NCBI RefSeq assembly: GCF_001748145.1
Contig: NZ_BCQA01000002.1
Span: forward strand, 303,501-367,500
DNA length: 64,000 nucleotides
Direction of reading: 5' to 3'
DNA from: Bosea sp. BIWAKO-01
GTDB lineage: Bacteria > Pseudomonadota > Alphaproteobacteria > Rhizobiales > Beijerinckiaceae
Position numbers and translations under genes: made by a program. The notes under the pieces are model-generated. The model had not been told where the DNA came from. It ran no database searches and worked only from the letters and a program-made list of their open reading frames with translations. Below are positions 8,276 to 28,914 of this stretch, piece by piece (position 1 is the stretch's first letter; each line of letters opens with the position of its first letter).

Positions 8276-9064
8276 TCAGAAACTCTCCAGCGGCTTGTCC
8301 AGATCGAGCCCCGTCTGTTCAAACCCGCGCTTGAAGTCGGCGATGTGGCGATGCATCCAGGCTTCCGCCTCGTCGGCGTCCCGCTCCTTCAACGCCTTTA
8401 GCAACGCGTGATGCGCGTCGAGGATGCGCCTCTGCGTCTTGAGGCGCGGCAGGATCGCCCTGCCTGCCGGCATGAAAAGCTGACTGATCGGCTCGCGAGC
8501 AAGGCCGAGGGCACGGTTGCGAGCCGCGTGGGCGATGATATCATGGAACTCGATATCGAGCCTGACGACCTCGACATGGTCCGTTATCGCCTTCTCCATC
8601 TCGGCAATGTTCTGCTGGAGCTGAGCCAACTCAGCGGCCGTGATCCGTTCGGCTGCATAGCGCGCCACCACCGGCTCGATTGCGATCGACGCCTCCCACA
8701 ACTCGCGGAAGGTGACCTCATGCAGCCGTAGGAGCCGGCTGGTGCGCGCGGCGGTGGCGTTGAGGTGGGGCCGGGTCACCTGCAGGCGCTTGCCCGTTTT
8801 GCGCTGGACGAGACCGCTCTCTTCCAGCATCCGGATGCCTTCGCGTACCGTGGAACGGTTGACGCCGAACTGCTCCGCGAGATGGGTCTCGGTCGGTAGC
8901 AGCACACCAGGCTTGAGTTCGCCGTGAACGATCTGCTTTTCGATCGCGTCATAGACGAGCCGGTAGACGGGAGCAGTCTCGAGCTTCTTGAAGGTCTGTT
9001 TCGTCACGGCATTACCATCACTGGCGGGCTTCAGTGAGATCGGCGGGTAGAGGTTCGGCAGCAT
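8276..9064 (-). CDS. GntR-family regulator, FadR subfamily
   Basis: The N-terminal winged helix-turn-helix (ETHLAEQFGVNRSTVREGIRMLEE) binds DNA, and the all-helical C-terminal FCD-type domain (about residues 110-235, with DIEFHDIIAHAARN and the His positions of the ligand/metal site) senses a metabolite. About 263 residues from the ATG at 9064; a GTG at 9007 is an alternative and neither has a strong ribosome site. It follows the MaoC gene in the same direction and borders a large acyl-CoA catabolic cluster. FadR-type proteins recognise TnGTnnnACnA, and TTGTCCGACAA copies occur before the units of this cluster, so it is the likely local repressor. Confidence 0.85.
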   Translation of the reverse strand: MLPNLYPPISLKPASDGNAVTKQTFKKLETAPVYRLVYDAIEKQIVHGELKPGVLLPTETHLAEQFGVNRSTVREGIRMLEESGLVQRKTGKRLQVTRPHLNATAARTSRLLRLHEVTFRELWEASIAIEPVVARYAAERITAAELAQLQQNIAEMEKAITDHVEVVRLDIEFHDIIAHAARNRALGLAREPISQLFMPAGRAILPRLKTQRRILDAHHALLKALKERDADEAEAWMHRHIADFKRGFEQTGLDLDKPLESF

Positions 9065-9170
9065 TGCCGCATTCTTGCCATAGCATGTCCTGCGCGGCCG
9101 GGTAGACACTCCCCCGGAAGCGCCCGGCAGTTGTTTCGACATCTCCCCCGGCGAAGCGAACGTGTGGTGC

Positions 9171-9674
9171 TCATGTCGGCCGGGGCCGCTTGAGGGCTTC
9201 ATGCGGCATAACGGCGATGGTGGCGTTCGCTTCGACAAAGACCGCCCCCTTCGGATCGACAAGACCGCCGTCCAACTCGACGAGTATGCCGTACAGGGAC
9301 GGCTTCGGTATGATGCTACGAACCGTCCAGCGTGCGATGAGCGCGGCGTCAGCCGGCACGGCCTTTCGCAGCCGGAAGGAGCAGTCCAATCCGAGCGAGG
9401 CGTTCTCCGGGAAGATATGGTTGGCGAGGCTGCCGAGGAGGAGACCCGTCGTCTGCGTGCCGCTGGCGATCAGCCCTCCGAAACGGGTGGCGGAGGCGAG
9501 ATCGGCATCATGATGGAGGGGGTTGCTGTCGTTGGTCAGCGTCGCGAAGGCGCGTACTGAATCCGGCGTGAAGAAAATTGGCGCCTCGAGCACCTGCCCC
9601 ACTGTGAAGGGGGGCTGCCATTCCCGCGCTCCGGCCGCTGGCGCAGTGCTCCTTCCCGTGTCCACCGTCGTCAT
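9171..9674 (-). CDS. MaoC-like (R)-specific enoyl-CoA hydratase
   Basis: A 167-residue hot-dog-fold protein of the MaoC dehydratase family, which adds water to trans-2-enoyl-CoA or dehydrates 3-hydroxyacyl-CoA. The hydratase-2 signature is visible as NDSNPLHHD followed by ATRFGGLIASG (residues about 48-73), containing the catalytic Asp and His. It is upstream of the GntR gene and divergent from the SDR at 9,838, sharing a 163-bp region with a GntR-type site. It would act in the degradation pathway encoded by the following 19 kb. Confidence 0.85.
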   Translation of the reverse strand: MTTVDTGRSTAPAAGAREWQPPFTVGQVLEAPIFFTPDSVRAFATLTNDSNPLHHDADLASATRFGGLIASGTQTTGLLLGSLANHIFPENASLGLDCSFRLRKAVPADAALIARWTVRSIIPKPSLYGILVELDGGLVDPKGAVFVEANATIAVMPHEALKRPRPT

Positions 9675-9737
9675 GGCCTCTCACCGCTGCCTGCGGGCGC
9701 CGCAGGACTTGCTTTCACGATATGTCGGGTTATTGAC

Positions 9738-9748
9738 TTGTCCAACAG
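9738..9748. promoter_or_regulatory. Degenerate FadR-type operator (TTGTCCAACAG)
   Basis: TTGTCCAACAG differs at two positions from the palindrome TTGTCCGACAA found at 15,083, 27,564 and 28,904. It sits between the divergent MaoC and SDR genes, 90 bp before the SDR start, where a shared repressor site would be expected. Confidence 0.5.
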
Positions 9749-9837
9749 AAATTCGAGCGGGTCAACGGATGCCCCGACGGCACCGGTCGGGCTGTACTGA
9801 CCCACAGAGCTCAAGTACGCCGAGGAAACGCCTTCCC

Positions 9838-10623
9838 ATGCCCGCAAGCTCGCTCCATGCCCTGCTCGATCTTAGTGGCCGTGTCGCCATCGTTACCGGC
9901 GGATCACGCGGGCTCGGCCTACAGATCGCGGAGGCGCTGGGCGAGTTCGGCGCCCGGATCGTACTCGTCGCCCGCAAGGCGGCGGAGCTCGAAGCGGCGG
10001 AGCAGAGCCTGAAGGCACAGGGCATCGACGCTGCGGGCTTCACCGCCGACCTCTCGCGCCCCGAAGCGATCGAAGCGCTCTGCGGCTTGGTCGGCGCGCG
10101 CTATCCGCAGGTCGACATCCTCGTCAACAATGCCGGCACATCCTGGGGTGCGCCGACGCAGGACCATCCGCTCGAAGGTTGGAACAAGGTCATGGCGATC
10201 AACCTCACCGGCATCTTCCTGCTGACGCAGGCGGTTGCGAAGCGCTGGATGCTGCCGGCACGGCGCGGGCGCATCCTGAACATCGCTTCGATCGAAGGCC
10301 TGCGCGGACACCATTCCGACCTCGTCGGAACGATCGGCTACAATACCGCCAAGGGAGGGCTGGTGAACTTCACGCGTGCGCTGGCGGCGGAATGGGGACC
10401 GCACGGCATCACTGTGAATGCGCTGGCCCCCGGCTATTTCCACTCGAAGCTGACGGCGGCGACCCTGGATCAACACGAGGCGCAACTCGTCGCGCATACG
10501 CCGCGCGGCGAACTCGGCGGGTCGCAGGATCTGAAGGGTGCGGCGCTGCTCCTCGCCTCGGATGCGAGTGCCCATATCAGCGGGCAGATTCTCGCCGTCG
10601 ATGGCGGTTACACGGCGATTTGA
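9838..10623 (+). CDS. SDR-family oxidoreductase
   Basis: A 261-residue classical SDR with TGGSRGLG, NNAGTSWG, the serine in NIASIEG, the YNTAKGG active-site Tyr and Lys, and the C-terminal GQILAVDGGYTAI. The ATG at 9838 is chosen because GAGGAAACG precedes it; the frame is open upstream but passes the promoter region. In the cluster it is the natural candidate for oxidising a hydroxyacyl-CoA or a free alcohol. Its only same-strand neighbours start after 15 kb, so it is probably monocistronic. Confidence 0.9.
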   Translation: MPASSLHALLDLSGRVAIVTGGSRGLGLQIAEALGEFGARIVLVARKAAELEAAEQSLKAQGIDAAGFTADLSRPEAIEALCGLVGARYPQVDILVNNAGTSWGAPTQDHPLEGWNKVMAINLTGIFLLTQAVAKRWMLPARRGRILNIASIEGLRGHHSDLVGTIGYNTAKGGLVNFTRALAAEWGPHGITVNALAPGYFHSKLTAATLDQHEAQLVAHTPRGELGGSQDLKGAALLLASDASAHISGQILAVDGGYTAI

Positions 10624-10682
10624 TCCGTGCCGCCGGTCTCGCCGCCAGAGGCCGCTGACTTTACGAGAAAACGCGGCACGCT

Positions 10683-11732
10683 CTAGGCTCGGGTGGCGAA
10701 GGCTGCGGCCTGCGTAAGGCAAAGCTCCGCGACCCGGCCGCGCGTCAGCGCCTGCGGCGAGGCAGCATTTCCGTCTAGCGCGCGCTTGTAGACGCCCTGC
10801 AGGATGGCCGCGAGCCTGTAGAAGGCGAAGGCGAGGAAGTAGTTGCGGGTGGCAACGGCATCTATCCCGGATTCGCGGGAATAGATGTCGAGGAATTCGG
10901 CCTCGTCGGGTATGCCGAGCGTCCGGAGATCCTGATCAGCGAGGCCGTTCAGCACTGAATGCGGCAGATGGTACCAGATGCAGCAATAGGCCAGATCGGC
11001 TAGTGGTTCGCCCACCGTGCACAGCTCCCAGTCCAACACGGCCGCGACCTCACTGCCCTGGAAGATCAAGTTCTCGATCCGGTAGTCGCCGTGGACGATG
11101 CCGATATTCTCGGTTGTGGGTTTGTGCTCGAGCAGCCATTGCCCTACGGCCTCGATACGCGGATCGTCCTGCGTCATGGCCGCGAGATAGGCGCCGCGCC
11201 AGACGCCGATCTGCCGACCGACGAAGTCGCCACGAGGCTTGACGCCTGCCCCTTCCAGAACGGAAGGCTTGATGCGATGCAGCCGCGCCATCGTCCCGGC
11301 CGTCGCTTCATAGATCGCGCGCCGCTGAGCGGGCGTATCATTCGGGAGGGCCGGGTCCGAATGAACGGCACCGGGGATGTAATCCATCACGAAAAAGCTC
11401 GTGCCGATGATCTCGCGCTCTTCGCTGGCGAAGAGCGGGTTCGGCACGGTGAAGCCCGCGCCGTGTAACGCCTGCATGATATTGTGCTCGCGCACCACGT
11501 CATGGGCGCGGGGCAGCAGATGGCCGCAGGGCTGCTTGCGCAGCACGAAGCGGCGCTCCCCGGCGGCCAGCAGATAGGTCGGGTTCGACTGCCCAGCTTC
11601 GAACTGACGCTCGATCTCGATGGTTTCGGCCGGCCGGATCACGCCGGCTTCGCGCAGGGTCGCTTCGAGCCGGGGCAGGGAGGCGGTGAAGGAGACGCGC
11701 TCCTCGGTCGATGGAATCGGGCTGTCGGCCAT
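10683..11732 (-). CDS. APH-family kinase-like protein (ACAD10/LvaA type)
   Basis: A 349-residue protein of the aminoglycoside-phosphotransferase fold. The ATP site (NPTYLLAAGERRFVLRK, about residues 51-67), the catalytic loop HGDYRIEN (about 216-223) and the metal-binding DWEL...GEPLADLAY are all present. Members found beside acyl-CoA dehydrogenases, such as LvaA of Pseudomonas and the ACAD10/11 kinase domain, phosphorylate 4-hydroxyacyl-CoA rather than antibiotics. The neighbours here (CoA ligase 5 bp upstream, ACAD10/11-like dehydrogenase at 15.1 kb) fit that role. It is the last gene of the minus-strand unit starting at 14,834. Substrate is inferred. Confidence 0.8.
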   Translation of the reverse strand: MADSPIPSTEERVSFTASLPRLEATLREAGVIRPAETIEIERQFEAGQSNPTYLLAAGERRFVLRKQPCGHLLPRAHDVVREHNIMQALHGAGFTVPNPLFASEEREIIGTSFFVMDYIPGAVHSDPALPNDTPAQRRAIYEATAGTMARLHRIKPSVLEGAGVKPRGDFVGRQIGVWRGAYLAAMTQDDPRIEAVGQWLLEHKPTTENIGIVHGDYRIENLIFQGSEVAAVLDWELCTVGEPLADLAYCCIWYHLPHSVLNGLADQDLRTLGIPDEAEFLDIYSRESGIDAVATRNYFLAFAFYRLAAILQGVYKRALDGNAASPQALTRGRVAELCLTQAAAFATRA

Positions 11733-11737
11733 TGCGC

Positions 11738-13135
11738 TCAGGAGGCCTTGTCGGAGAACTGGTAGCCGGCGGGGCGCTCGTCCTTCCAGCGACGAGCCTT
11801 GTTCTCGAAGAACGGCAACTCGTCGCGCGGCACTTCACGTACCTTCATCTGGACGTTGGTTCGTTCCTTGATGGCGGTCTGGACGCGCAACAGGACGGCC
11901 GCGCGCTCGGCCTCGCCGCGGGCGGCGTGCTCGGGCTTGAGCCCGACCTTGACCATGACCTCGGTGCGGCCCTTCTCGTCGACGAAGACGCTGCCGACAT
12001 ATTCCGCGACCTCGTGATGGGCGAAGATGGCGAGATCGACGGCTGACGGCCAGACATTGTTGCCGCGGATCTTCATCATGTCGTCATAGCGGCCGATGGT
12101 GCCGCTCTCGATGCAGGTCCAGGCGCGCCCATTATTCGCCGATGCCTTCGGCAAGAGCCGGACGCGGTCGCGCGTGCGGAAGCGGACGACCGCCGAGCCT
12201 TCGATGTCGAGATTGGTCAGTACGATTTCGCCGAACTCGCCTTCCTTCACCGGCTCGTCGGTATCCGGGTCGAGCACCTCGACGATGACGTGCCAGTCGA
12301 AGCACTGCATCGGCGCACGGCCGCCATCGGCCGAGACCACGCCCTGCTCGCTGGTCGAGCAGATGAAGCCGGCACCCTGCGTGCTGCCATAGCCTTCGTG
12401 CAGCGTCGCGCCCCAGACCTCCTGGATGGTCTGCGCCCATTCAACCGGGTAGCCCTCGGCCGCGATGAACAGGCTTTTCATTGTCGGAAAGCGCTCGCGT
12501 GGATCGATGCCGCGGCGACGCATGGCCTCCGTCAGCGTGTGTAGGTAGTTCGTCGAGGCATAAATGAAGTGGATCTCGCCGAAGCGGCACATCAGGTCGA
12601 CCTTGGCGTCGGTGCTCATCGTGCCACCGACCGTCAGCGGCAGGGCGCCGGCGGCACGGAAGCCTTCCGTCGGCCCCCAGCCGCCGGTCGTGAGCCCGCC
12701 GGAGGGTACGCAGTTCAGCCCGACATCGCCCTGCCGCAGACCGGCAATGTGCCAGGGAAGCTGGTGGAAATAGCCCTGCATGACGAGGTCGCGCTGCGAG
12801 CGGCCATAGACTTCCTGTCCCTGTCCCGACGTGCCGCCGGTCATGCAGACCAGCGCGACGTCTTCCCGTGGGATGCCGAGACGCCGGCCGAAGGGCTGGT
12901 GCTCGTTCTGGTCGGCGAGGCAATCGGCCTTGGTGATCGTCGGGATGCGCCTGAGATCCGCCAGCGAACGGATGTCGTCGAGACGAACGCCCGCCTTGTC
13001 CCACCGCTCCCGATAGAAGCCGCTCGTGGCATGAAGCCGCTCGATCTGGCGCCTCAGCTTGGCGAGCTGGAGCGCCTGCATCTCGTCGCATCTAAGCGCG
13101 CCCATCTGGGCGATGATGGCGGAGGAAGCGTGCAT
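11738..13135 (-). CDS. Phenylacetate-CoA-ligase-family acyl-CoA synthetase
   Basis: A 465-residue AMP-forming ligase of the PaaK type, which would activate a carboxylic acid as its CoA thioester. The phosphate-binding loop CMTGGTSGQGQEVYGRS (about residues 95-111), the HEGYGSTQGAG motif, the RTRDR hinge region and the C-terminal IRGNNVWPSAVDL and ENKARRWKDERP pieces are present. The loop resembles the TSGTTG type less strictly than PaaK itself, so the substrate may differ from phenylacetate. It lies between the DUF35 protein and the APH kinase on the minus strand and is likely the entry step of the pathway. Confidence 0.85.
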   Translation of the reverse strand: MHASSAIIAQMGALRCDEMQALQLAKLRRQIERLHATSGFYRERWDKAGVRLDDIRSLADLRRIPTITKADCLADQNEHQPFGRRLGIPREDVALVCMTGGTSGQGQEVYGRSQRDLVMQGYFHQLPWHIAGLRQGDVGLNCVPSGGLTTGGWGPTEGFRAAGALPLTVGGTMSTDAKVDLMCRFGEIHFIYASTNYLHTLTEAMRRRGIDPRERFPTMKSLFIAAEGYPVEWAQTIQEVWGATLHEGYGSTQGAGFICSTSEQGVVSADGGRAPMQCFDWHVIVEVLDPDTDEPVKEGEFGEIVLTNLDIEGSAVVRFRTRDRVRLLPKASANNGRAWTCIESGTIGRYDDMMKIRGNNVWPSAVDLAIFAHHEVAEYVGSVFVDEKGRTEVMVKVGLKPEHAARGEAERAAVLLRVQTAIKERTNVQMKVREVPRDELPFFENKARRWKDERPAGYQFSDKAS

Positions 13136-13231: not shown

Positions 13232-13651
13232 TCAGGCCGGCTCGAATAGCGGCAGCACCAGCTCTTCGGTGACTTGCCTGAACGCGACCTTGAGCGGCAT
13301 GTCCGCCACCACATCCTCGGGCGCGCAGCCGACGATATTGGACGGCATCCGCACGCCCTCGGCGAGCTCGACCAGCGCGACGACATAGGGGACGTCGTCG
13401 ACATAGACCGGCTTCGGCACGGGATGGCGCACGACGATCCAGCTGAAGACCTTACCGGCACCCGAGGCCTGTTTCCATGACACGCGCCCTGAGCCGCAAT
13501 GCGCGCAGATATTGCTCGGCGGGAACTGATTCCGGCTGCAATCGTCGCAATGCTGGATCATCAGGCGCTGCTCACGGCAGCCGGCCCAGAACGGCGCGGA
13601 ATCGGGATCGGGAACCGGGACCGGCTTGGCGTATGCTTCTGGTGACGACAT
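13232..13651 (-). CDS. DUF35 OB-fold protein with zinc ribbon
   Basis: A 139-residue protein with a rubredoxin-like zinc ribbon (CDDC at about 35-38 and CAHC at about 49-52) and a following OB-fold (VFSWIVVRHPVPKP, PYVVALVELAEGVR). DUF35 proteins partner thiolase-fold enzymes, for example in archaeal HMG-CoA synthase complexes and in the Ltp2-ChsH2 steroid retro-aldolase. Here the next upstream gene, 4 nt away, encodes such a thiolase-fold protein. It is therefore most likely a structural or substrate-channel subunit of that enzyme. Confidence 0.9.
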   Translation of the reverse strand: MSSPEAYAKPVPVPDPDSAPFWAGCREQRLMIQHCDDCSRNQFPPSNICAHCGSGRVSWKQASGAGKVFSWIVVRHPVPKPVYVDDVPYVVALVELAEGVRMPSNIVGCAPEDVVADMPLKVAFRQVTEELVLPLFEPA

Positions 13652-13655
13652 CGCC

Positions 13656-14834
13656 CTACCTCCTCAGGATCATCGCGCTGCCGCAGGTCATCGCCCCGGC
13701 GGTGGTGAGCGCGATCTCCGCATCGGGAACCTGGCGCGGGCCGGACTGGCCGCGCAATTGCTCCACCGCTTCGATCACATGGTTGAACCCGTGGATGTAG
13801 CCCTCGGAGAGCAGACCGCCATGGGTGTTGACCGGCAGCTTTCCGTCGCGGCGGATATGGCCGTCGGCGATGTAGCTGCCGGCCTCGCCCAGCCCGCAGA
13901 AACCAAGTCCTTCAAGCTGCATCAGGATGCTGTAGGTGAAGCAGTCATAGATCTCGGCGACGTCGATATCACTCGGCGTCACGCCAGCACTGCGCCAGAG
14001 GTCGTCCGCGATATAGTGGCTGTAGTTCTTCGAATGGTCCGGCCAGCGGATGCAGTCGAACAGGTCGTCCCCTTGCTGCGGCCCGCCGCCATAGGCGCCG
14101 CCCATGATGTAGACGGGCTTCTGCTTCATGTCCCGGGCGCGTTCAGCCGAGGTCACGACCACAGCGCACGCGCCGTCCGTCTCCAGACAGATGTCGAACA
14201 TGCGGAAGGGATCGACGATCGGGCGCGAGGCCAGATAGTCGTCCATGGTCATCGGCTTGCGCTGCATCGCGCGGGGATTGAGCACGGCGTTCTCTCGCAG
14301 TGTGACCGCGACATTGCCGAGCTGTTCCGGCGTCAGCCCGTATTCGATCTGATAGCGGCGGCACCACATCGCCATGGCCTGCGGATAGGTGATCCAGCCG
14401 AAGGGCGCGGTAAATTGCGTCGGACCCAGTGCCCGGAATTCGCGCCCGCCGCCGAGCCGGAAGCCGGAACGGCCGTTCATCGCGCGGTAGCAGACGACGG
14501 TATCGGCCAGCCCGGCCTCGATCGCGGCCACGGCCGAGAGCACGATCAGGTTGGCGGCGTTGCCGCCCGCCAGGAAGTCGACCGCATAGCCGGCATTGGG
14601 GATGTCGAGTCCGGTCGCGACGGCGATCGCCGGCGCCGAATCGTTGAAGTTATAGCTGACGATGCCATCGATATCGGCGGGTTTCAGCCCGGCATCGGCA
14701 ATGGCATTGGCCGAAGCCTCGATGGCGAGCGCGCGGACCGTGCGGCCTGAATTGGCCGAGTAGTCCGTCGTGCCTATGCCGACGATCGCGTACTTGTCCT
14801 TGAGCGCATAAGCGGATCTGCGAGCGGTTCCCAT
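13656..14834 (-). CDS. Thiolase-fold enzyme (SCP-x/Ltp2-like), possible aldolase
   Basis: A 392-residue member of the non-decarboxylating thiolase superfamily of SCP-x/lipid-transfer type. The conserved VNTHGGLLSEGYIHG loop and the C-terminal TTAGAMTCGSAMIL are present. Where a classical thiolase has its nucleophilic Cys (NRLCGSG in the thiolase at 27,669), this one reads DFLAGGNAANL without Cys. Loss of that Cys is known for Ltp2-type retro-aldolases, which need a DUF35 partner, and a DUF35 gene follows directly. It is the first gene of the minus unit, preceded by FadR-type sites. Thiolase versus aldolase activity remains open. Confidence 0.8.
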   Translation of the reverse strand: MGTARRSAYALKDKYAIVGIGTTDYSANSGRTVRALAIEASANAIADAGLKPADIDGIVSYNFNDSAPAIAVATGLDIPNAGYAVDFLAGGNAANLIVLSAVAAIEAGLADTVVCYRAMNGRSGFRLGGGREFRALGPTQFTAPFGWITYPQAMAMWCRRYQIEYGLTPEQLGNVAVTLRENAVLNPRAMQRKPMTMDDYLASRPIVDPFRMFDICLETDGACAVVVTSAERARDMKQKPVYIMGGAYGGGPQQGDDLFDCIRWPDHSKNYSHYIADDLWRSAGVTPSDIDVAEIYDCFTYSILMQLEGLGFCGLGEAGSYIADGHIRRDGKLPVNTHGGLLSEGYIHGFNHVIEAVEQLRGQSGPRQVPDAEIALTTAGAMTCGSAMILRR

Positions 14835-14918
14835 CTCTTGCCTTCGCCTGAAAGGGCCTGGAAGCGCCCAGCGCCTCGCCGCCTGTCAACGGCCCACTTG
14901 GCAGGCCACAGTTGAGTA

Positions 14919-14929
14919 TTGCCCGACAA
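14919..14929. promoter_or_regulatory. FadR-type operator variant (TTGCCCGACAA)
   Basis: TTGCCCGACAA differs by one base from the perfect palindrome. It is 85 bp upstream of the thiolase-fold gene in the divergent promoter region and is followed by further half-sites (CGGACAATTGACAAC). Confidence 0.5.
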
Positions 14930-15082
14930 CCGGACAATTGACAACCCACTCTCGCGATCTTCCTGGTGCTCCCGTATCGTGTTTTGTGGCGCGATACTGC
15001 CTTATAACAGATTGAAATTTAACAGATAATGATCACATTCGCTCTTCGGTTTTCGATGGTTGCATTATCTATTTTTGTCGTG

Positions 15083-15093
15083 TTGTCCGACAA
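15083..15093. promoter_or_regulatory. FadR-type operator (TTGTCCGACAA)
   Basis: This palindrome has the known FadR-subfamily form TnGTnnnACnA. It lies 56 bp before the acyl-CoA dehydrogenase start and is extended by flanking GTCGTG and GACAAC sequence. The same 11-mer occurs at 27,564 and 28,904. Confidence 0.75.
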
Positions 15094-15148
15094 GACAACA
15101 TCGGCTAGGGATAGCTCCGCGCCATCGCAGCAGCGAAGGGGGAGGATG

Positions 15149-16369
15149 ATGGACTTCGAACATTCACCGAAGGTCAGGGACCTGCTCGCTCGGCTCGGTG
15201 CCTTCATGGCCGAGCATGTCTACCCGAACGAGCGGGTCTATTCCGAGCAGGTCGCCTGCAGTGCCGATCGTTGGGTGTCGCCGCCCATCATGGAAGAGAT
15301 GAAGGCGAAAGCTCGCGCAGCCGGACTGTGGAACCTGTTCCTGCCCAATCATGATGGCGGTGCGGGCCTGAACAATCTGGAATATGCGCCGCTCTGCGAA
15401 GTGATGGGCCGTTCACCCATCGCCGCTGAGGTCTTCAACTGCTCCGCGCCCGACACCGGCAACATGGAAGTGCTGGCGCGCTACGGCACATCCGAGCAGA
15501 AGAGGCGCTGGCTCGAGCCGCTGCTGGCGGGCGAGATCCGTTCCGGCTTCGCGATGACGGAGCCACAGGTCGCATCCTCCGATGCGCGCAACATCGCCTC
15601 GCGCATCGTTCGCGACGGTGACGACTACGTCATCAACGGCCGCAAATGGTGGACTTCGGGTGCCGGCGACCGGCGCTGCAAGATCCTGATTTTCATGGGC
15701 CTGACCGATCCCGAGGCCGAGCCCTTCCGGCGTCAGTCGATGATCCTCGTGCCGATGGACGCGCCCGGCGTCGCGTCTGTCCGACCGCTGACGGTATTCG
15801 GCTACGATCATGCGCCGCACGGCCATCTCGAGATGCGGTTCACCGATGTGCGCGTGCCGGCCACCAACATGCTGCTCGGTGAGGGACGCGGTTTCGAGAT
15901 CGCGCAAGGGCGGCTGGGTCCCGGCCGCATCCATCACTGCATGCGTGCGATCGGGCTGGCCGAACGGGCATTGGAATCGATGGTCGCACGCGCTCGCAGC
16001 CGTGTCGCCTTCGGCAGGCCGATCGCCGAGCAGGGCATGCTGCGCGAGGCCATCGCCGAAAGCCGCATGGGGATCGAGCAGGCGCGGCTGCTGACGCTGA
16101 AGGCCGCCTATATGATGGACACCGTCGGCAACAAGGCGGCCCGCGCCGAGATCGCGATGATCAAGGTCGTCGCGCCGCGCATGGCGCAGGCGGTGCTCGA
16201 CCGGGCGATCCAGATCCATGGTGGCGGCGGCGTCAGCGGCGATTTCGGCCTGGCGGAAGGCTGGGCGCTGGCGCGCACGCTGCGTCTCGCGGACGGTCCC
16301 GACGAAGTCCATATGGACCAGATCGCCCGTCTCGAACTGGCCAAACCGGCCGAGCTCTGGAACTGGTGA
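15149..16369 (+). CDS. Acyl-CoA dehydrogenase, ACAD10/11-like
   Basis: A flavoprotein of about 406 residues that would introduce a double bond next to the CoA ester. It shows the FAD/substrate segments [16 protein letters not shown] and [14 protein letters not shown] and the C-terminal [41 protein letters not shown]. That ending is characteristic of the ACAD10/ACAD11/LvaC group, whose members act on phosphorylated 4-hydroxyacyl-CoA. The start at 15149 (the second of two ATGs) follows AAGGGGGAGG; 15146 is equally in frame. It opens a plus-strand unit with the FadJ-like gene and a second dehydrogenase. Confidence 0.9.
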
Positions 16370-16380
16370 AGACGCGCAAC

Positions 16381-21620: not shown

Positions 21621-22316
21621 TCAGATGGCGATATGCTTGTGGAAGTCCTCCGCCTCAATCTCGGCGAGCGAGCCTGAGGCGGCAACAGCTCCCTTCGACA
21701 AGACGTAGAAGCGCTCGGCGACACGCCGGATCAGCCCGACGCTCTGCTCGATCAGCAGGATGCCCATGCCCTCGTCGCCGAGCCTGACGAGCAAGTCGGC
21801 GAGCTCGTCGACAATGACGGGCGCCAGCCCCTCGCTCGGCTCGTCGAGGATGAGCAGATCCGGATTGGCCATCAACGCCCTGCCGATGGCGAGCATCTGC
21901 TGCTGCCCGCCTGAAAGCGCGAGACCGGGGCTGGCCTTGCGTTCCTCCAGGATGGGGAAGAGCGCCTTGACGCTCTCCAGCGTCCAGGGGCCACGCCGGC
22001 GTGTGGCTGTGCCGAGCAGAAGGTTTTCCTCGACCGTCAGGTTGCCGATGATGCCGCGCCCCTGTAGCACCACCGAGATGCCGTTCTTGGCTGCCGTGTA
22101 GCGGCGCAGATCGCGCACCTCTTCGCCGCGGATCTCGACATGGCCGCTCTCGATCCGGGTGACGCCGCAGAGTGTGTTGACCACCGTAGTCTTGCCAACA
22201 CCGTTGCGCCCGACGAGTGCAACGCGCTCGCCTGCGGCGATATCGAAGCTGACTCCGTTGAGGATGCGGGCCTGACCGTAGAGCGCGTGGACGTCATGAA
22301 AGGCGAGCAGAGTCAT
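21621..22316 (-). CDS. ABC transporter ATP-binding protein, LivF type
   Basis: A 231-residue ATPase subunit that energises the branched-chain-type importer. Walker A is GRNGVGKTT (about residues 38-46), the signature is LALSGGQQQMLAIGRAL and Walker B is LLILDEPSEGLAP. The ATG at 22316 overlaps the stop of LivG, indicating translational coupling. It forms a heterodimer with the LivG-type subunit under the two permeases. Confidence 0.93.
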   Translation of the reverse strand: MTLLAFHDVHALYGQARILNGVSFDIAAGERVALVGRNGVGKTTVVNTLCGVTRIESGHVEIRGEEVRDLRRYTAAKNGISVVLQGRGIIGNLTVEENLLLGTATRRRGPWTLESVKALFPILEERKASPGLALSGGQQQMLAIGRALMANPDLLILDEPSEGLAPVIVDELADLLVRLGDEGMGILLIEQSVGLIRRVAERFYVLSKGAVAASGSLAEIEAEDFHKHIAI

Positions 22317-23026
22317 CACGCCTCCGTCCCGAGATAGGCGGTGACAACGCGCTTGTCGGCCCTGATTTCCGCAACATTGCCTTCAGCGAGCGTCTCGCCG
22401 AGATGCAGCACGGTGATGCGGTCGCAGATCGAGAACACGACCTGCATGTCGTGCTCGACCAGCAAAACCGTGACGTTCCAGCGGCTGGCGAGGTCGCGCA
22501 GGATCGTCGCGAGCCCATGCGATTCCTCGACCGTCAGCCCGGCCGCCGGTTCGTCGAGCAGCAGCACGCTCGGGCGGCCCACGAGGGCGAGCGCGAGGTC
22601 GAGCCGTCGCTGGTCGCCATAGCTGATCTCGGCCGCCGGCATCCGCGCCAACGCGGTGAGGTTGAGTTCTTCCATCACCTCTTCGACGCCGACCTCGGCG
22701 ACAGCCCAGGAAGCGATGCGCAATTGCTGCTCGACGCTCAGCATCGGGAAGATGTTGGTGCGCTGGAACGAGCGCGCTAGCCCGAGCCTGCGCCGCTCCT
22801 GCGGTTTCAGCCGCGAGACATCCTGCCCGTCGAGCAGGACGCTGCCGGGCTGGCCGCGGACACGGCCGGAGAGCACGTCGATCAGCGTCGACTTGCCTGC
22901 GCCGTTGGGGCCGATCAGTCCACGGATCTCTCCGCGCCGCACCGTGATGTCAACGCCCTTGAGTGCCCGGAAGCCGCCGTAGCGGCGTTCGAGGCCGATG
23001 CCTTGGATCGCGATCGCTTCGCTCAT
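22316..23026 (-). CDS. ABC transporter ATP-binding protein, LivG type
   Basis: A 236-residue ATPase with Walker A GPNGAGKST (about 38-46), signature ISYGDQRRLDLALAL and Walker B VLLLDEPAAGLTVEE. The signature starts SYGDQ rather than SGGQ, which is normal for LivG proteins. It overlaps the LivM stop by four bases. It pairs with the LivF-type subunit for ATP-driven uptake of the cluster's substrate. Confidence 0.93.
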   Translation of the reverse strand: MSEAIAIQGIGLERRYGGFRALKGVDITVRRGEIRGLIGPNGAGKSTLIDVLSGRVRGQPGSVLLDGQDVSRLKPQERRRLGLARSFQRTNIFPMLSVEQQLRIASWAVAEVGVEEVMEELNLTALARMPAAEISYGDQRRLDLALALVGRPSVLLLDEPAAGLTVEESHGLATILRDLASRWNVTVLLVEHDMQVVFSICDRITVLHLGETLAEGNVAEIRADKRVVTAYLGTEA

Positions 23027-24027
23027 GGCTGCCTCCGCATCCGGAGCCAGCCGGCTTTCAGCAGGCCGACGATGCCCTGCGGCATGACGAGCGTGACTAT
23101 GACGAGCACGCCGCCGACGATCGCCGGCCAGTATTCGGCGAAACGCCCGGCGAAGTCCTTGAGAATGAAGAAGCAGACCGCACCGATTGCTGGGCCGAGG
23201 ATGAACTGCGCGCCGCCCACCACGGCCATGATCAGGGCGGAGCCCGACAGGCTCCAGTGGAACATCTGCGGGGCGATATAGCCGTTATAAGTCGCCTGAA
23301 GCAGGCCGGCGATGGCGGCGAGCAAGGCCGAGATCGCGTAGACGATCGCGGGCGGGATCGTGGTGTCGTGGCCGATGAAGCGGGCGCGCTCGGCATTATC
23401 GCGCACCGCAGCGGCGATCTGGCCCATCCGGCTGTTGGCGAAGAGGGCTAGCCCGAGCAGGGCCAGCACGAGAATGGTCCAGGCGACGACGACCATCACG
23501 GACGGATCCTGCAGCAAGCTTGAATCGAACCCGAAAATGCGCGCCGGCAGGTTGAATGACATGCCGTCGTCGCCCTTCGCCAGCTCACGCCAGCGAAAGG
23601 CGATCTCGTAGAAGGCCTGCCCCACGGCGAGCGTCAGCATGGCGTGGGCGACGCCGGTGATGCGGGCGAAGACGAGCCCGAGCAGGAAGGCGACCAGCGT
23701 CGGCAAGGCGAGCGCGGTCAGGAAGGCGAGTTCGGCCGCCATCAGCCCGCGCGCCACCAGCACGCCGAAGGCATAGCCGCCGAGCCCGAAGAAGGCGGCC
23801 TGGCCGAAGCTCACGCGCCCGTTCTGCAACACGAGGAAGCCGACACTAGTGGCGAGCAGCGCATCGAAGATCGCCTGCGTCGCCAGCGAAAGCATGAGCT
23901 GGGACGAGACCAGCCTGGGCGCGGCCACACCGAGCACAAGCGCCCCCACGGCAATCACAAGCAGGCCACGCGTTTTCGGCAGGAAGCTCGATGGGGCAGG
24001 AACACTGCCCTGGGACAGGGCCGTCAT
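23023..24027 (-). CDS. ABC transporter permease, LivM type
   Basis: A 334-residue inner-membrane permease with about ten hydrophobic segments, beginning near residue 20 (GLLVIAVGALVLGVAAPRL). The motif GRVSFGQAAFFGLGGYAFG is the LivM family hallmark, and RMGQIAAAVRDNAERARFIG is the coupling-helix region contacting the ATPases. It overlaps LivH by four bases (ATGA). Confidence 0.93.
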   Translation of the reverse strand: MTALSQGSVPAPSSFLPKTRGLLVIAVGALVLGVAAPRLVSSQLMLSLATQAIFDALLATSVGFLVLQNGRVSFGQAAFFGLGGYAFGVLVARGLMAAELAFLTALALPTLVAFLLGLVFARITGVAHAMLTLAVGQAFYEIAFRWRELAKGDDGMSFNLPARIFGFDSSLLQDPSVMVVVAWTILVLALLGLALFANSRMGQIAAAVRDNAERARFIGHDTTIPPAIVYAISALLAAIAGLLQATYNGYIAPQMFHWSLSGSALIMAVVGGAQFILGPAIGAVCFFILKDFAGRFAEYWPAIVGGVLVIVTLVMPQGIVGLLKAGWLRMRRQP

Positions 24028-24872
24028 GTCCGCGATCCCGCGAAGCCGGTGGGCCGCCAGATCAGGATACCGATCATCAGCAGGAAGGGCAGCATGGTCG
24101 CGGCCCAGGGCAGGTAGATCGCGCCGAGACTGTGGATCTGGCCGATCAGTAGCGCCGCGAAGAAGGCGCCTGCGAAGCTACCGAGGCCGCCGATCACCAC
24201 GACGATGAAGGAATCGATCAGGATGTAGTTGCCCATGGTCGGCGAGAGCGTCAGCAGCGGCCCGGCAACGACGCCGGAGAGCCCTGCGAGCGCCGTGCCG
24301 AGCCCGACCACGATAAGGCTCAGCCGGTCGACGTCGATGCCCTGGATCGAAGTGACGTGCGGATTGGTGCTGGCGGCGCGGACATAGAGACCCATCCGCG
24401 TGAAGCGCAGCCAGGCCGCGAGCCCGCCCGCAACGAGCAGGCTCACCGCGATGATGAAGAGCCGGTAGATCGGGAAAGGGGAACCCACGATCGTGACCGT
24501 GCCGTCGAGCAGCTTTGGAACGGGATAGCTCAGATACGCCTTGCCCCAGGTCACCGTGACCACGGTCTCGAGGATCAGCAGCAGCCCGAACGTGATCAGC
24601 ACCGTAACGATGTGGTCGTGCTTGCGCAGGCTGCGGAAGACCAGCACGTCGAGCACGCAGCCCACGGCTGCCATTGCCACCACCGAGACCAGCAGCCCGA
24701 GCCACCAGTGGCCGGCTGCGGCCAGTGTGAAGCCAATATAGGAGCCGAGCATGAAAAGCGCGCCATGCGCGAAGTTCACCACCTCGCGCAGGCCGAAGAT
24801 CAGCACGAGCCCGACGGCCAGCAGATAGAGCAGGCCGCCATAGACGATACCGTTGAGGAGCTGGATCGTCAT
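24024..24872 (-). CDS. ABC transporter permease, LivH type
   Basis: A 282-residue membrane permease that starts MTIQLLNGIVYGGLLYLLA and shows the LivH motif VVNFAHGALFMLGSYIG, several further hydrophobic helices and the coupling segment RFTRMGLYVRAASTNPH. It lies 3 nt downstream of the SDR gene at 24,876 and overlaps LivM. With LivM it forms the channel for the substrate bound by the receptor at 20,378. Confidence 0.93.
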   Translation of the reverse strand: MTIQLLNGIVYGGLLYLLAVGLVLIFGLREVVNFAHGALFMLGSYIGFTLAAAGHWWLGLLVSVVAMAAVGCVLDVLVFRSLRKHDHIVTVLITFGLLLILETVVTVTWGKAYLSYPVPKLLDGTVTIVGSPFPIYRLFIIAVSLLVAGGLAAWLRFTRMGLYVRAASTNPHVTSIQGIDVDRLSLIVVGLGTALAGLSGVVAGPLLTLSPTMGNYILIDSFIVVVIGGLGSFAGAFFAALLIGQIHSLGAIYLPWAATMLPFLLMIGILIWRPTGFAGSRT

Positions 24873-24875
24873 GCG

Positions 24876-25649
24876 CTATCCCGCCGTATAGCCGCCATCG
24901 ACATAGATGGTCTGGCCCGTGATGTAGGAGGCGGCGCGGGAGGCAAGGAAGACGATCAGCCCCGTCACGTCCTCGACCTCCCCGAGACGGCCGATGGCCG
25001 AGCGCTGCAGCACCTTGTCATAGAGCTGCGGTTGGGTGCGGATCAGCTCGCGATTGAGATCGGTGACGATGACGGTCGCGCCGATGGTATTGACGGTGAC
25101 GCCGTGCTTGCCGAGCTCGAAGGCCATCGCCGCGCCAAAATTCGCTAGTCCGGCCTTTGCGGCGCAATAGGCAGTGCGGTTCGCCATGCCCCGGCCCGAT
25201 AGGATCGAGCCCATGTTGAGGATGCGGCCATAGCTGCGCTCGCTCATCACGGGCGCGAAAGCGCGCGAGCAGAGAAAGGCGCCGGTCAGGCTGACGTCGA
25301 CGACGCTCTGCCAATCGGCCAGAGTGGTCTCGGCTAGCAGCTTTGGCGAGGTGACGCCAGCATTGTTGAACAGGATATCGGCGCGCCCGAAGGCAGCGAG
25401 CACGGCATCGCGCGCCGCCGCGACTGAGCTTTCGTCAGTGACGTCCGCCTCGACGATGAGCGCGCGGCGCCCCGCCGCCTCGATCGCCTGCGCCGTGCGC
25501 TCGAGCTTCTCCCGGTTGCGGCCCAGCACAGCGACATCAGCGCCGGCAGCCGCTAGCGCTTCGGCCGCGGCGGAGCCGATTCCGCCGCTGCCGCCGGTCA
25601 CCACCGCTGCGAGCCCGTCGAGACGGAATGGCTCGGAGTACGTCGCCAT
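24876..25649 (-). CDS. SDR-family oxidoreductase
   Basis: A 257-residue classical SDR. TGGSGGIGSAAAEAL binds the cofactor, followed by NNAGVTSPKL, NMGSILSG (catalytic Ser), AYCAAKAGL (Tyr, Lys) and GQTIYVDGGYTAG. The ATG at 25649 is chosen because GAGGTGGGC stands just upstream. It lies between another SDR and the importer genes, with gaps of 7 and 3 nt, so it belongs to the same operon. A 3-hydroxyacyl-CoA or ring-alcohol dehydrogenase role is likely; substrate unknown. Confidence 0.9.
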   Translation of the reverse strand: MATYSEPFRLDGLAAVVTGGSGGIGSAAAEALAAAGADVAVLGRNREKLERTAQAIEAAGRRALIVEADVTDESSVAAARDAVLAAFGRADILFNNAGVTSPKLLAETTLADWQSVVDVSLTGAFLCSRAFAPVMSERSYGRILNMGSILSGRGMANRTAYCAAKAGLANFGAAMAFELGKHGVTVNTIGATVIVTDLNRELIRTQPQLYDKVLQRSAIGRLGEVEDVTGLIVFLASRAASYITGQTIYVDGGYTAG

Positions 25650-25656
25650 GCCCACC

Positions 25657-26433
25657 TCACATCGCCATCTGGCCGCCATCGATCGGCATTGCGATGCCGG
25701 TGATGACACGCGCCTCGTCCGAGGCGAGGAACAGGGCGGCGGCGGCGATATCCTCCGGCTCCGGCATCCGGGCGAGCGGGATGGTGGCGCGGAAGCGCTT
25801 CATCGCCTCGTCGCGGTCGCCGGCCATGCCAGGCAGGAAGGCTGATAGCATCGGCGTCTCCGTTACCGTCGGGCAGATCGCATTGACGCGAATGTTCTGC
25901 GGCGCGAGCTCGAGCGCGAGGCTGCGAACCAGCCCGACGATGCCGTGCTTGGCTACGGTGTAGAGGCTGAAATTGGGCTTGGCCTTCAGCCCCTGCAGCG
26001 AGGAGGTAAAGAGCAGCGCGGCCCCGGCGGGATTGCCGGCCGCGCTTTGGCGCAGGGCCGGCAAAGCGGCGCGCGTCATCTTGAGGACGCCGAGCAGGTT
26101 GACGCTCAGCACGCGCTCCAGCGTCGCATCGTCAATCGCCTCGAAGGCGCCGGTGAACGGTCCGCCGGCATTGTTGTGCAGGATGTCGAGTGCGCCGAAA
26201 CGCTCCAACGCGAAGGCGACGGACCGCGCACAATCCTCGCTGCTGGTGTGGTCGCAATGGCAATAGACGGCATTTGCGCCAATCTCGCCCGCGACGACCT
26301 CGCCGGTCGCGTCGGCGATGTCGGTGACGACAACTTTGGCGCCTTCGGCCGCGAAGCGCCGCGCCACTGCCTTGCCAAGCCCGGATCCGGCGCCGGTGAC
26401 GAGGGCGACCCTGCCTTGAAGCCGCCCGGTCAC
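25657..26433 (-). CDS. SDR-family oxidoreductase (GTG start)
   Basis: A 258-residue classical SDR with TGAGSGLGKAVARRF, NNAGGPFTG, TSSLQGLKAKPNFSLYTVAKHG (catalytic Ser, Tyr, Lys) and the ending GIAMPIDGGQMAM. The GTG at 26433 is chosen because it overlaps the stop of the small upstream gene and is preceded by GGAGGCG; a longer frame exists but reads through that gene. Placement between the small protein and the second SDR points to co-translation in the catabolic operon. Confidence 0.9.
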   Translation of the reverse strand: MTGRLQGRVALVTGAGSGLGKAVARRFAAEGAKVVVTDIADATGEVVAGEIGANAVYCHCDHTSSEDCARSVAFALERFGALDILHNNAGGPFTGAFEAIDDATLERVLSVNLLGVLKMTRAALPALRQSAAGNPAGAALLFTSSLQGLKAKPNFSLYTVAKHGIVGLVRSLALELAPQNIRVNAICPTVTETPMLSAFLPGMAGDRDEAMKRFRATIPLARMPEPEDIAAAALFLASDEARVITGIAMPIDGGQMAM

Positions 26434-26630
26434 GAATGCGCCTCCGTCAGTAGGAGGGCGGGCGGCGTGGCGACGGCAACCATCGCGGCGATCCGCCCGC
26501 GCAACTGGGTGGCCTGGCCCGTCAGGAGCGGATCCTGCGTGGCGCAGAGCCGCTCGGCATCGGCGAGCATCCGCGTCAGGATCGCATAGGCGTCCTCGTT
26601 GCACGATTCACGGCGACGCTCATCGCCCAT
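26430..26630 (-). CDS. Small hypothetical protein, 66 aa, translationally coupled
   Basis: A 66-residue protein rich in Ala and Arg, predicted to be helical (NEDAYAILTRMLADAERL, TQLRGRIAAMVAVA), with no signal peptide. It has a start preceded by GGAAGCAG and its stop overlaps the GTG of the SDR (GTGA), which supports that it is translated. I do not recognise a family. It could be a small subunit or chaperone for one of the neighbouring enzymes, or merely a leader that couples translation of the SDR. Confidence 0.55.
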   Translation of the reverse strand: MGDERRRESCNEDAYAILTRMLADAERLCATQDPLLTGQATQLRGRIAAMVAVATPPALLLTEAHS

Positions 26631-26725
26631 CAGCTGCTTCCTTCCCGTTCGGCGGCCTCTTCTGTCACGGTTTGCCGTGCGCGGGCCTTGTTCATTGTCT
26701 TAGTGCGCCTTGCGGCGCGGTGCCG

Positions 26726-27520
26726 TCAGCTCTGGTAGACCGGCTTGCGCTTTTCCTTGAAGGCGAGCAGGCCCTCCGTCGCATCCGGCTCGGTGGTCGC
26801 GTAGTTCAGGACGAAGTCCATTTCGTAGCGCAATCCTTCCTCCAGATCGGAGGTCAGGGTCTTGTTGGCGAGGTGCTTGGCCGAGGCCAGCCCGACCCGG
26901 CTCTTCTCCGCCAGTTGTCCGACGAGCCGGTCCAGAGCGGGTTCGAGTTCGGTATGCGGCACGACCTCGTTGACGAGGCCGATTTCGCGCGCCTGCTCGG
27001 CCGTCAGGAGCTGGCCGGTCAGCATCAAGTGCTTCGCCCGCAGCAGGCCGATTGCGCGCGGCAGGCGTTGCGAGCCGCCGGCGCCGGGCAACTGCCCGAA
27101 ATTAAGATGGCCGTCGCCGATCCGCGCCGTATCCGCCGCGAGGACGAGATCGCAGGCGAGAAGCAATTCGAGCCCGCCGGCAACGCAGACGCCGTTGATC
27201 AGGGCAACATAGATCTTCCTGGAGTTCTCGATGCCCGTGAGCATCGCGTAGAAATCCTCGAGGAAGCCGGAGAACTCCGCAGGCTCGCGATAAAGCCTGA
27301 GATAGCCGTCGAGATCGCCACCGGCCGAGAAGCTGCGGCCGCTGCCGACGATGCTGACGAGGAAGACATCGTCCATCGCCTCGATTGCCTCGACGGCCTG
27401 CTTGAGCTCCCGCACGGTGGCCCAGTCGAGCGGATTGAGCTTGTCCGGCCGTTGGAGCGACAGGCGCGCATGTCCGCCGACCTTGTCCAGTCCGACATTC
27501 GCCATTTCTGTCGTGAGCAT
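26726..27520 (-). CDS. Enoyl-CoA hydratase/isomerase family protein
   Basis: A crotonase-fold protein of about 264 residues. The oxyanion-hole segments SIVGSGRSFSAGGDLDGYL and INGVCVAGGLELLLACDLVLA, and LPGAGGSQRLPRAIG, are visible. The first catalytic Glu position lies in GGLELL; the second, usually E in LPExxLG, reads GHLNFGQLPG, so it may be an isomerase, hydrolase or thioesterase-like member. The ATG at 27520 has AGGG upstream; 27538 and 27556 are in-frame alternatives. A FadR-type operator at 27,564 lies immediately upstream. Confidence 0.85.
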   Translation of the reverse strand: MLTTEMANVGLDKVGGHARLSLQRPDKLNPLDWATVRELKQAVEAIEAMDDVFLVSIVGSGRSFSAGGDLDGYLRLYREPAEFSGFLEDFYAMLTGIENSRKIYVALINGVCVAGGLELLLACDLVLAADTARIGDGHLNFGQLPGAGGSQRLPRAIGLLRAKHLMLTGQLLTAEQAREIGLVNEVVPHTELEPALDRLVGQLAEKSRVGLASAKHLANKTLTSDLEEGLRYEMDFVLNYATTEPDATEGLLAFKEKRKPVYQS

Positions 27521-27563
27521 CCCACCCTGCGGCAGCATCGTTTTTATTGAATCCATTGTCCGC

Positions 27564-27574
27564 TTGTCCGACAA
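27564..27574. promoter_or_regulatory. FadR-type operator (TTGTCCGACAA)
   Basis: A perfect copy of the palindrome, 44 bp before the chosen start of the enoyl-CoA hydratase gene and downstream of the thiolase stop. It indicates a second promoter inside the minus-strand gene run. Confidence 0.75.
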
Positions 27575-27668
27575 CGGGACGTTAGCATCACCACCTGCCC
27601 CGTCAAGAGAGGAGTGATGCCGCGTCGCCGCTTTTTGGCGTGCGGGAGTCCGAAAGGCGCAGGGCCCG

Positions 27669-28850
27669 TCAGGCCCGCTCGAAGATCGCCGCGATGCCTT
27701 GCCCGCCGCCGATACACATGGTCACGAGGGCGTAACGACCGCCGACGCGCCGGAGTTCATGAACCGCCTTCACGACGTTAATGGCCCCGGTCGCACCGAC
27801 TGGGTGGCCGAGCGAGATCCCGCTGCCATTCGGATTGACGATGGCCGGATCGAAATCGAGTTCGCGGGAGACGGCGCAGGCCTGTGCCGCAAAGGCCTCG
27901 TTCGATTCTATGACGGAGAGGTCACCGACCTTGAGCCCCGCCTTCGCCAGCGCCTTGCGCGTCGCGGGGACAGGGCCGATGCCCATATATTCGGGATCGA
28001 CGCCGGCATGGCCGTAGGCGACTAGCCGTGCGAGCGGCTTCACGCCCGTTTTGCGGACGGCATCGCCGCTGACGAGCACGACCGCCGCCGCACCATCATT
28101 GATGCCGGACGCGTTGCCGGCCGTGACCGAGCCCCCCTCCTTCTTGAAGACAGTGCGCAGCCCGGAGAGATCGGCCTCCTTCACCTCGTGGCGAACATGC
28201 TCGTCCTCGGCGAAGATCGCCGACCCCGAGCGCGTCTTGATCTCAATCCCAGTGATCTGGTCCTTGAAGCGGCCTTCGCGGATCGCGCGAGAGGCCCGTC
28301 GGTGGCTTTCGACGGCCAGCGCGTCCTGCGTCTCCCGGTCAATGCCGTAGCGCGCGGCGACGTTCTCCGCCGTCACTCCCATCAGCATCTGGCCAAAAGG
28401 ATCGCGCAGCGCGCCGTCCAGCATGTCGACCATCACCGTGTCGCCCATCTTCACACCCCAGCGCATGGCAGGGGAGAGGAAGGGCGCGCGGTTCATGCTC
28501 TCGGAACCGCCGCCGAGCGTGATCTCGGCATCGCCGAGCAGAATTGCCTGAGCCGCCGTGATCACGGCCTGAAGCCCGGAGCCGCACAGACGATTGACCG
28601 TCATCGCCGGCGTCTCGACGGGGATACCGCCATTCACCGCCGCAACACGCGCGATATAGGCGTCGCGCGGCTCCGTCTGGATGACCTGGCCCCAGGCGAC
28701 ATGGTCAATTTCGGAGGGCTCCACGCCGCTATCAGCAACGGCGCTCCTGACCAAAGCGCTCCCGAGTTCCCCGGGCGCAACATCCTTCAGTGACCCACCG
28801 AAGGTGCCAATCGCGCTTCGGCGCGCTGCAACAATAAAGACATCCGTCAT
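27669..28850 (-). CDS. Acetyl-CoA acetyltransferase (thiolase)
   Basis: A 393-residue classical thiolase that cleaves 3-oxoacyl-CoA with CoA to acetyl-CoA and a shortened acyl-CoA. All catalytic residues are present: nucleophilic Cys in NRLCGSGLQA (about residue 88), NEAFAAQ, His in GHPVGATG and the second Cys in MCIGGGQG. It is the promoter-proximal gene of the minus-strand run 28,850-20,378 and is preceded by a perfect FadR-type site. It is the expected terminal step of the beta-oxidation-like pathway here. Confidence 0.95.
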   Translation of the reverse strand: MTDVFIVAARRSAIGTFGGSLKDVAPGELGSALVRSAVADSGVEPSEIDHVAWGQVIQTEPRDAYIARVAAVNGGIPVETPAMTVNRLCGSGLQAVITAAQAILLGDAEITLGGGSESMNRAPFLSPAMRWGVKMGDTVMVDMLDGALRDPFGQMLMGVTAENVAARYGIDRETQDALAVESHRRASRAIREGRFKDQITGIEIKTRSGSAIFAEDEHVRHEVKEADLSGLRTVFKKEGGSVTAGNASGINDGAAAVVLVSGDAVRKTGVKPLARLVAYGHAGVDPEYMGIGPVPATRKALAKAGLKVGDLSVIESNEAFAAQACAVSRELDFDPAIVNPNGSGISLGHPVGATGAINVVKAVHELRRVGGRYALVTMCIGGGQGIAAIFERA

Positions 28851-28903
28851 CGAGAAGTCCCAATCCCGCTCAGAAAGGTCATTAGGTATACGTTAATGTC
28901 GGC

Positions 28904-28914
28904 TTGTCCGACAA
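28904..28914. promoter_or_regulatory. FadR-type operator (TTGTCCGACAA)
   Basis: A perfect palindrome 54 bp upstream of the thiolase start, where a repressor would cover the promoter. It is identical to the sites at 15,083 and 27,564. Confidence 0.75.

Follow-up and report, generated by a model that had tools for sequence, protein, structure and literature searches.

What does a short palindrome that recurs through a 20-kb cluster of catabolic genes do, and which protein reads it? The question is raised by a 64,000-nucleotide stretch of Bosea sp. BIWAKO-01 (contig NZ_BCQA01000002.1, positions 303,501 to 367,500; hereafter the window, numbered from its first letter). Between positions 8276 and 28914, a gntR gene, genes for acyl-coenzyme A (CoA) metabolism and a Liv-type ATP-binding cassette (ABC) transporter are accompanied by five copies, three exact and two imperfect, of the 11-bp palindrome TTGTCCGACAA. 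An earlier note, made from the letters of the window, had proposed a candidate regulon with operator and repressor, and both the link of the palindrome with gntR relatives and the conservation of the control regions support this proposal. We consider it very probable that the five palindromes serve as operators for the GntR/FCD product of the gene at 8276-9007, an autoregulated repressor of six transcription units that would be released by an acid of the pathway or its CoA thioester. The location of the sites, their near-exclusiveness in the genome, their conservation and their link to related gntR genes are read directly from the sequence.

How specific is the palindrome to this cluster? We searched the whole genome (7,326,961 bases in two contigs, with the window on the 494-kb contig C2). 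It contains three exact copies of the 11-mer, at 15083, 27564 and 28904, as the earlier note had located them, and all are within the cluster; the reversed pattern has four copies. With at most one mismatch, on both strands, 77 matches are found, fewer than the 133 of the reversed pattern; the motif is thus not a common one in general, and the expectation that few copies would lie elsewhere is borne out. The genome has one other perfect TTGTCNGACAA palindrome (TTGTCTGACAA, C1:5945040), which is inside a 560 amino acid open reading frame (ORF) for a solute-binding protein. The two remaining sites of the cluster had been called near-perfect. Site 14919 has one mismatch; for 9738, which has two, the term is generous, though this site is conserved. 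All five sites precede genes, as had been claimed, and together they serve six predicted transcription units. Site 15083 is inside an ORF only with the first ATG (15029), and 27564 only with a TTG start; the starts in an annotated relative are downstream of both. We also sought an extended symmetric consensus beyond the core, where the flanking columns are poor in information, with at most 0.44 bits.

With up to two mismatches the window contains 24 matches, versus 10.4 expected. We rejected three further places as operators: 11748, where the ligase gene ends, and 26915, within ech, both of which are coding sequence with no match at one mismatch or less in Bosea lathyri, and 31414, which is within a short-chain dehydrogenase (SDR) ORF outside the module. 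One-mismatch forms do recur elsewhere at the ligase end (loci L055 and L169) and inside ech (L163). Two points speak for a chance or structural repeat with no regulatory role: the motif was chosen once the sequence had been inspected, and one-mismatch matches occur in coding sequence as well. Because of this choice after inspection we sought independent evidence. Against such a repeat stand the genome-wide exclusiveness, the conservation and the recurrence of the palindrome beside related gntR genes in other families, and we find it scarcely credible.

Are the sites kept where the module is found again? In Bosea sp. F3-2, plasmid pB32-2 (L169) carries the same genes in the same order, and the part corresponding to 13656-20291 is 90% identical. 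There the sites 14919, 15083, 27564 and 28904 recur with no more than one mismatch, and that at 9738 has an identical 11-mer; the 38-kb stretch has two further one-mismatch places. Three further Bosea-type genomes, one of them B. lathyri, carry the cluster with GntR proteins that are 90-96% identical. When the four control regions are aligned across the window's genome and these three, the 11-bp cores have 11, 11, 10, 10 and 10 unvarying columns out of 11 (all 11 at 15083; 10 each at 14919, 27564 and 28904, with only the centre base varying at 28904), compared with 43-49% of the other ungapped columns. Site 9738 sits in a 28-bp block that is identical in all four genomes, and for this reason we count it as real despite its two mismatches. 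The conservation in the three other Bosea-type genomes indicates that both weaker sites, 14919 and 9738, are probably real. In these three genomes the cluster holds 3 of 3, 3 of 4 and 2 of 5 perfect palindromes. Of the four copies outside it, two precede gntR-like genes (L164, L167), and the other two fall within a transporter ORF and an Rrf2-type ORF. In a more distant genome (G503), two of the three perfect copies are on the gntR contig.

The palindrome also follows relatives of the regulator. The search for these covered 119 genomes from the family and 397 from the order (four strong matches from the order search came without a locus and are omitted from the counts). At 24 of 35 loci with proteins of 39-56% identity, a copy with no more than one mismatch lies within 1.5 kb of the regulator gene, and at 19 it is perfect; for the reversed control these counts are 3 and 0. 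When the search is narrowed to between 350 bp upstream and 60 bp inside the gene, TTGTCNGACAA with at most one mismatch turns up in 23 of the 41 members of the clade, in 1 of 26 FCD paralogues of the genome itself and in none of the 17 weak relatives. The 41 include the window's own gene and the duplicate L059/L103, three paralogues without a tblastn match were dropped, and one gene of the window's genome stands both among the weak relatives (L051) and among the paralogues (L068). The weak relatives have a perfect palindrome within 1.5 kb at 4 of 17 loci, all with near-identical proteins, and none within 350 bp upstream. All 41 group together in a single clade of a quick tree with 84 rows (SH-aLRT, a Shimodaira-Hasegawa-like likelihood-ratio support, of 99; no bootstrap). 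Inside the gene or up to 350 bp from it, a site is carried by 25 of 41 clade members, a count inflated by near-copies, as are the other clade counts, versus 1 of 43 rows outside; the labels change 9 times, versus 22.4 in shuffles.

Larger neighbourhoods give the same picture. Among 31 neighbourhoods of 12-21 kb (two of which, L059 and L141, are the same contig), 22 contain a perfect palindrome, with 34 copies in 591 kb, whereas each of 19 permuted palindromes used as a control is found in only 0-2. Twelve other genomes were searched in full, chosen from the 23 with neighbourhoods in a way that leaned toward those with sites: 22 of their 53 perfect copies are in these neighbourhoods, which make up 280 kb or about 0.4% of the DNA, a share from which about 0.2 copies would be expected. 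It is because the genes of its relatives carry the palindrome upstream that we assign the sites to the GntR protein of the window.

Several observations weigh against this assignment. No site is present within 350 bp of the gene in 16 of the 41 clade members, and the window's own gntR is among them, its nearest site being the imperfect 9738, beyond maoC. L136 and the pair L059/L141 lack any site with one mismatch or less, and G503 has one of its two gntR-contig sites inside the ligase gene. The total counts are not clearly above the reversed control in the 12 genomes (53 versus 41), and they are below it in 4 of 4 genomes of another count; the signal is therefore one of placement and not of number. 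The sites could also be operators of another FCD protein, with the gntR gene at the edge doing something else. The genome has 57 FCD matches, 56 besides this gntR, and the distinct regulators AlkR and LhgR protect TTGTCAGACAA and TTGTCTGACAA. In B. lathyri, TTGTCGGACAA and TTGCCTGACAA precede a second GntR/FCD gene (by Pfam; L164:4575-5548 on G501:C10), which shares 29% identity with the gntR of the window across 55% of it; a further regulator with this operator core is thereby at hand, and genome G502 has a very similar ORF and sites at L167. With so many FCD proteins, and others known to share the core, another regulator could read the sites, and the palindrome alone would not identify its reader. 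However, among the 29 of 56 paralogues examined, none has a perfect palindrome within 1.5 kb and one has a one-mismatch site, compared with the upstream sites in over half of the clade. We therefore regard a different FCD reader as improbable.

What kind of protein is the regulator? It has an N-terminal GntR winged helix (Pfam GntR, 4.5e-19, 68.3 bits) and a C-terminal FCD domain (Pfam FCD, 1.6e-24, 87.1 bits), both above cut-off, which place it in the FadR (FCD) subfamily of the GntR family. The claim of a FadR-type gene at the cluster edge is correct at this level, but the protein is not an orthologue of E. coli FadR (phmmer 9.1e-07, 32 bits, with many better matches; 21-22% identity in the fold match). 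The FadR operator half-site is TGGT, while the half-site here is TTGT. An AlphaFold2 model (predicted local distance difference test score 87) matches 6az6, NanR and a Brucella GntR protein first and then CGL2915, with modest template-modelling scores of 0.4-0.7. After the helix-turn-helix (HTH) the predicted model has eight helices of at least four residues, or seven if 176-186 and 189-200 are one broken helix (the FadR branch has seven and the VanR branch six); as far as a predicted model shows, this agrees better with the FadR branch. Residues R62 and R66 are invariant in 23 aligned relatives, and we take them to correspond to the contact arginines 45 and 49 of FadR. Where an arginine favours the G in TGGT, the regulator has a threonine and none of the 23 relatives has an arginine, which fits the TTGT half-site. 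D162, H166, H210 and H232 are also invariant in the aligned relatives and resemble the metal or ligand site of FCD proteins. At the conserved sites, the predicted sites of this protein, TTGT-CNG-ACAA agrees with the subfamily operator form; the pattern TnGTnnnACnA, which the earlier note had ascribed to the FadR subfamily, does correspond to a motif class, TKGT-N3-ACMA, in a survey of that subfamily (PMC4494728).

Beyond the core, a GACAA half-site (at least 4 of 5 bases) lies 8 bp further out on 15 of 74 sides of 37 non-redundant sites, versus 0-6 at 30 other offsets; the offset had been noticed by eye prior to its test. Four of the five cluster sites have it and 9738 does not. Four sites are also placed close to promoter-like elements, recognized by eye. 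The thl site is in the spacer of TTGATT-N17-TAACGT, the acd1 site is on the -35 element of TTGTCC-N17-TAGGGA, and the ech and sdr1 sites come just after TTGACG-N16-TAACGT and TTGCTT-N16-TATTGA, respectively. Judged from the letters, these positions fit those of a repressor. Might the GntR protein bind the sites as an activator, or repress some units and activate others? FadR-type regulators can do both, according to the AlkR paper (PMC12042122), and 14919 is about 85 bp upstream of its gene with no obvious overlapping promoter. The overlap or direct succession at sdr1, acd1, thl and ech nevertheless fits repression, and an activating role seems very unlikely. In loci of other families (L101, L102, L106-L108, L113, L115-L119), two perfect operators are upstream of gntR at distances of 98-123 bp (98-100, 108, 120 or 123), an arrangement that suggests looping or double occupancy.

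That the protein binds the sites, that it represses and does not activate, what induces it and how the operons are built are inferences, on the basis of which the following sequence of events may be proposed. A dimer would read TTGTC-N-GACAA, aided at many sites by the extra half-site. When substrate is absent, it would sit on or beside the promoters of all six units and repress them together with its own gene. The transported acid, or the CoA thioester made from it by the PaaK-like ligase, would then accumulate and bind the FCD domain, and the ligand-bound repressor would leave the DNA. By analogy with LhgR and AlkR, and in view of the genes for CoA esters in the cluster, the inducer may be the pathway acid or its CoA thioester.

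Table 1. Genes and predicted operators of the cluster, in window coordinates
Feature	Position	Strand	Description
gntR	8276..9007	-	FadR-subfamily regulator (GntR HTH + FCD), ~243 amino acids; start uncertain, 9007 to ~9040; annotated relative 732 nt
MaoC-like dehydratase (maoC)	9171..9674	-	Upstream of gntR, same strand; Pfam MaoC_dehydratas 4.2e-13
Predicted operator 1	9738..9748	.	TTGTCCAACAG / CTGTTGGACAA; 2 mismatches; between divergent maoC-gntR and sdr1
Short-chain dehydrogenase sdr1	9838..10623	+	Pfam adh_short_C2 1.5e-52
APH-family phosphotransferase	10683..11732	-	Pfam APH 4.2e-44
PaaK-like AMP-forming acyl-CoA ligase	11738..13135	-	Pfam AMP-binding; NCBIfam PaaK 1.4e-51, below cut-off
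ChsH2-like DUF35 partner (zinc ribbon + OB fold)	13232..13651	-	Pfam zf-ChsH2, OB_ChsH2_C
SCP2/Ltp-type thiolase-like protein, YDCF motif	13656..14834	-	Best solved relative 6ok1, lipid-transfer protein, 1e-80
Predicted operator 2	14919..14929	.	TTGCCCGACAA; 1 mismatch; nearest to thiolase/DUF35/ligase/APH operon
Predicted operator 3	15083..15093	.	TTGTCCGACAA, exact; in front of acd1
Acyl-CoA dehydrogenase acd1	15146..16369	+	Pfam Acyl-CoA_dh_1 2.7e-38 (longer ORF from 15029)
FadB-like enoyl-CoA hydratase / 3-hydroxyacyl-CoA dehydrogenase	16366..18486	+	Pfam 3HCDH_N, ECH_1
Acyl-CoA dehydrogenase acd2	18483..20291	+	Pfam Acyl-CoA_dh_1, Acyl-CoA_dh_C
livK-like substrate-binding protein	20378..21556	-	Pfam Peripla_BP_6 1.3e-80; upper limit from annotated relative
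livF, livG, livM, livH ABC transporter genes	21621..24872	-	Pfam ABC_tran x2, BPD_transp_2 x2
Short-chain dehydrogenases sdr2 + sdr3	24876..26604	-	Pfam adh_short_C2
Enoyl-CoA hydratase ech	26726..27538	-	Start 27520 or 27538; Pfam ECH_1 4.2e-50 (longer ORF)
Predicted operator 4	27564..27574	.	TTGTCCGACAA, exact; in front of ech + liv genes
BktB-like beta-ketothiolase (thl)	27669..28850	-	NCBIfam subfamily model PRK09051 7.1e-196, above cut-off; below cut-off of BktB equivalog model
Predicted operator 5	28904..28914	.	TTGTCCGACAA, exact; in front of thl

The genes of Table 1 are predicted to form six units: maoC-gntR, sdr1, thiolase/DUF35/ligase/APH, acd1-fadB-acd2, thl and ech-sdr-sdr-liv. 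The predicted role of the cluster is the uptake and breakdown of an organic acid. No steroid-ring genes are seen among the cluster genes. The thiolase-like protein and its neighbour at 13232-14834 are predicted to form a side-chain retro-aldolase, since they combine the two features of the Sal/Ltp type, a DUF35 partner and a YDxF/Y motif in the thiolase-like protein. The APH kinase (10683-11732) and the second acyl-CoA dehydrogenase (18483-20291) recall two domains of ACAD10/11, which are described as processing 4-hydroxyacyl-CoAs. As to the substrate, different directions are suggested by the PaaK-like ligase, by the Ltp/DUF35 pair and by the APH kinase, which may be compared with the 4-hydroxy-acid route.

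On pB32-2 the module has repABC, an integrase gene and a cold-shock gene at one end and an MqnA-type transporter at the other, and these neighbours differ from the two flanking ORFs of the window that we examined. The module therefore looks like a unit bounded by gntR and the outermost site, and the different flanks, with repABC and the integrase gene nearby, indicate that it has probably moved as a whole. In the window, the ORF just downstream of gntR (6028-7815, 595 amino acids) has an N-terminal Rieske domain and a remainder with no Pfam match, and the ORF just beyond the other end (29199-30512, 437 amino acids) has no Pfam or NCBIfam match.

What could this mean beyond one genome? We lean, with some reserve, toward the idea that an apparently undescribed, widespread clade of FCD regulators of Rhizobiales/Hyphomicrobiales type reads a composite operator, TTGTCSGACAA with a half-site 8 bp out, and has come to serve as a local switch for many different modules that combine a Liv-type ABC transporter with CoA-ester degradation. 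If this is true, one operator search across genomes would delineate acid-degradation pathways. The present catabolic module gains a predicted regulator, an operator and a probable target set. Since the same operator is beside related gntR genes in many genera, it could help to delimit further clusters for acid degradation and to build inducible biosensors.

How does the system compare with known ones? In the open-licence literature (subscription papers and RegPrecise being outside the scope) we found no paper on this regulator or cluster, and the exact spellings of the palindrome gave unrelated matches only. The side-chain aldolases Sal-Shy and Ltp2-ChsH2 likewise have a thiolase fold, a DUF35 partner and a YDC(F/Y) motif, and they act on steroid side chains (PMC12329534). 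In profile and fold comparisons with the regulator, E. coli NanR (6on4) and Corynebacterium glutamicum CGL2915 (2di3) rank among the top matches. NanR, at 24% identity, has an arginine where the regulator has a threonine and reads direct repeats, TGGTATAW (PMC4494728). The same FadR-subfamily survey (Suvorova et al. 2015) describes single sites serving divergons within the TKGT-N3-ACMA class and extra half-sites 7-12 nt from the centre; its available text names no group with this operator and cluster type.

Two known repressors share the operator core. AlkR is an FCD repressor whose DNase I footprint, ATTGTCAGACAAT, contains the TTGTCNGACAA core; it represses a catabolic gene, is also reported to bind at the fadD, fadBA and fadE promoters and is released by C16- and C18-CoA (PMC12042122). 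Its own authors place it in the VanR branch, and its targets are scattered genes, whereas those here form one cluster; its structure (9isw) ranks only 31st among the fold matches to our regulator, with 18% identity. The sequences protected by LhgR of Pseudomonas putida W619, a GntR-family repressor of lhgO, are TTGTCTGACAA at the promoter of its own gene and TAGTCTGACAA at lhgO, and the effector of LhgR is the pathway acid L-2-hydroxyglutarate (PMC8206213). The centre base of the LhgR site is T, compared with C or G here. The principle is not new: the operator core has already been footprinted with AlkR and LhgR, and the mechanism is a standard one.

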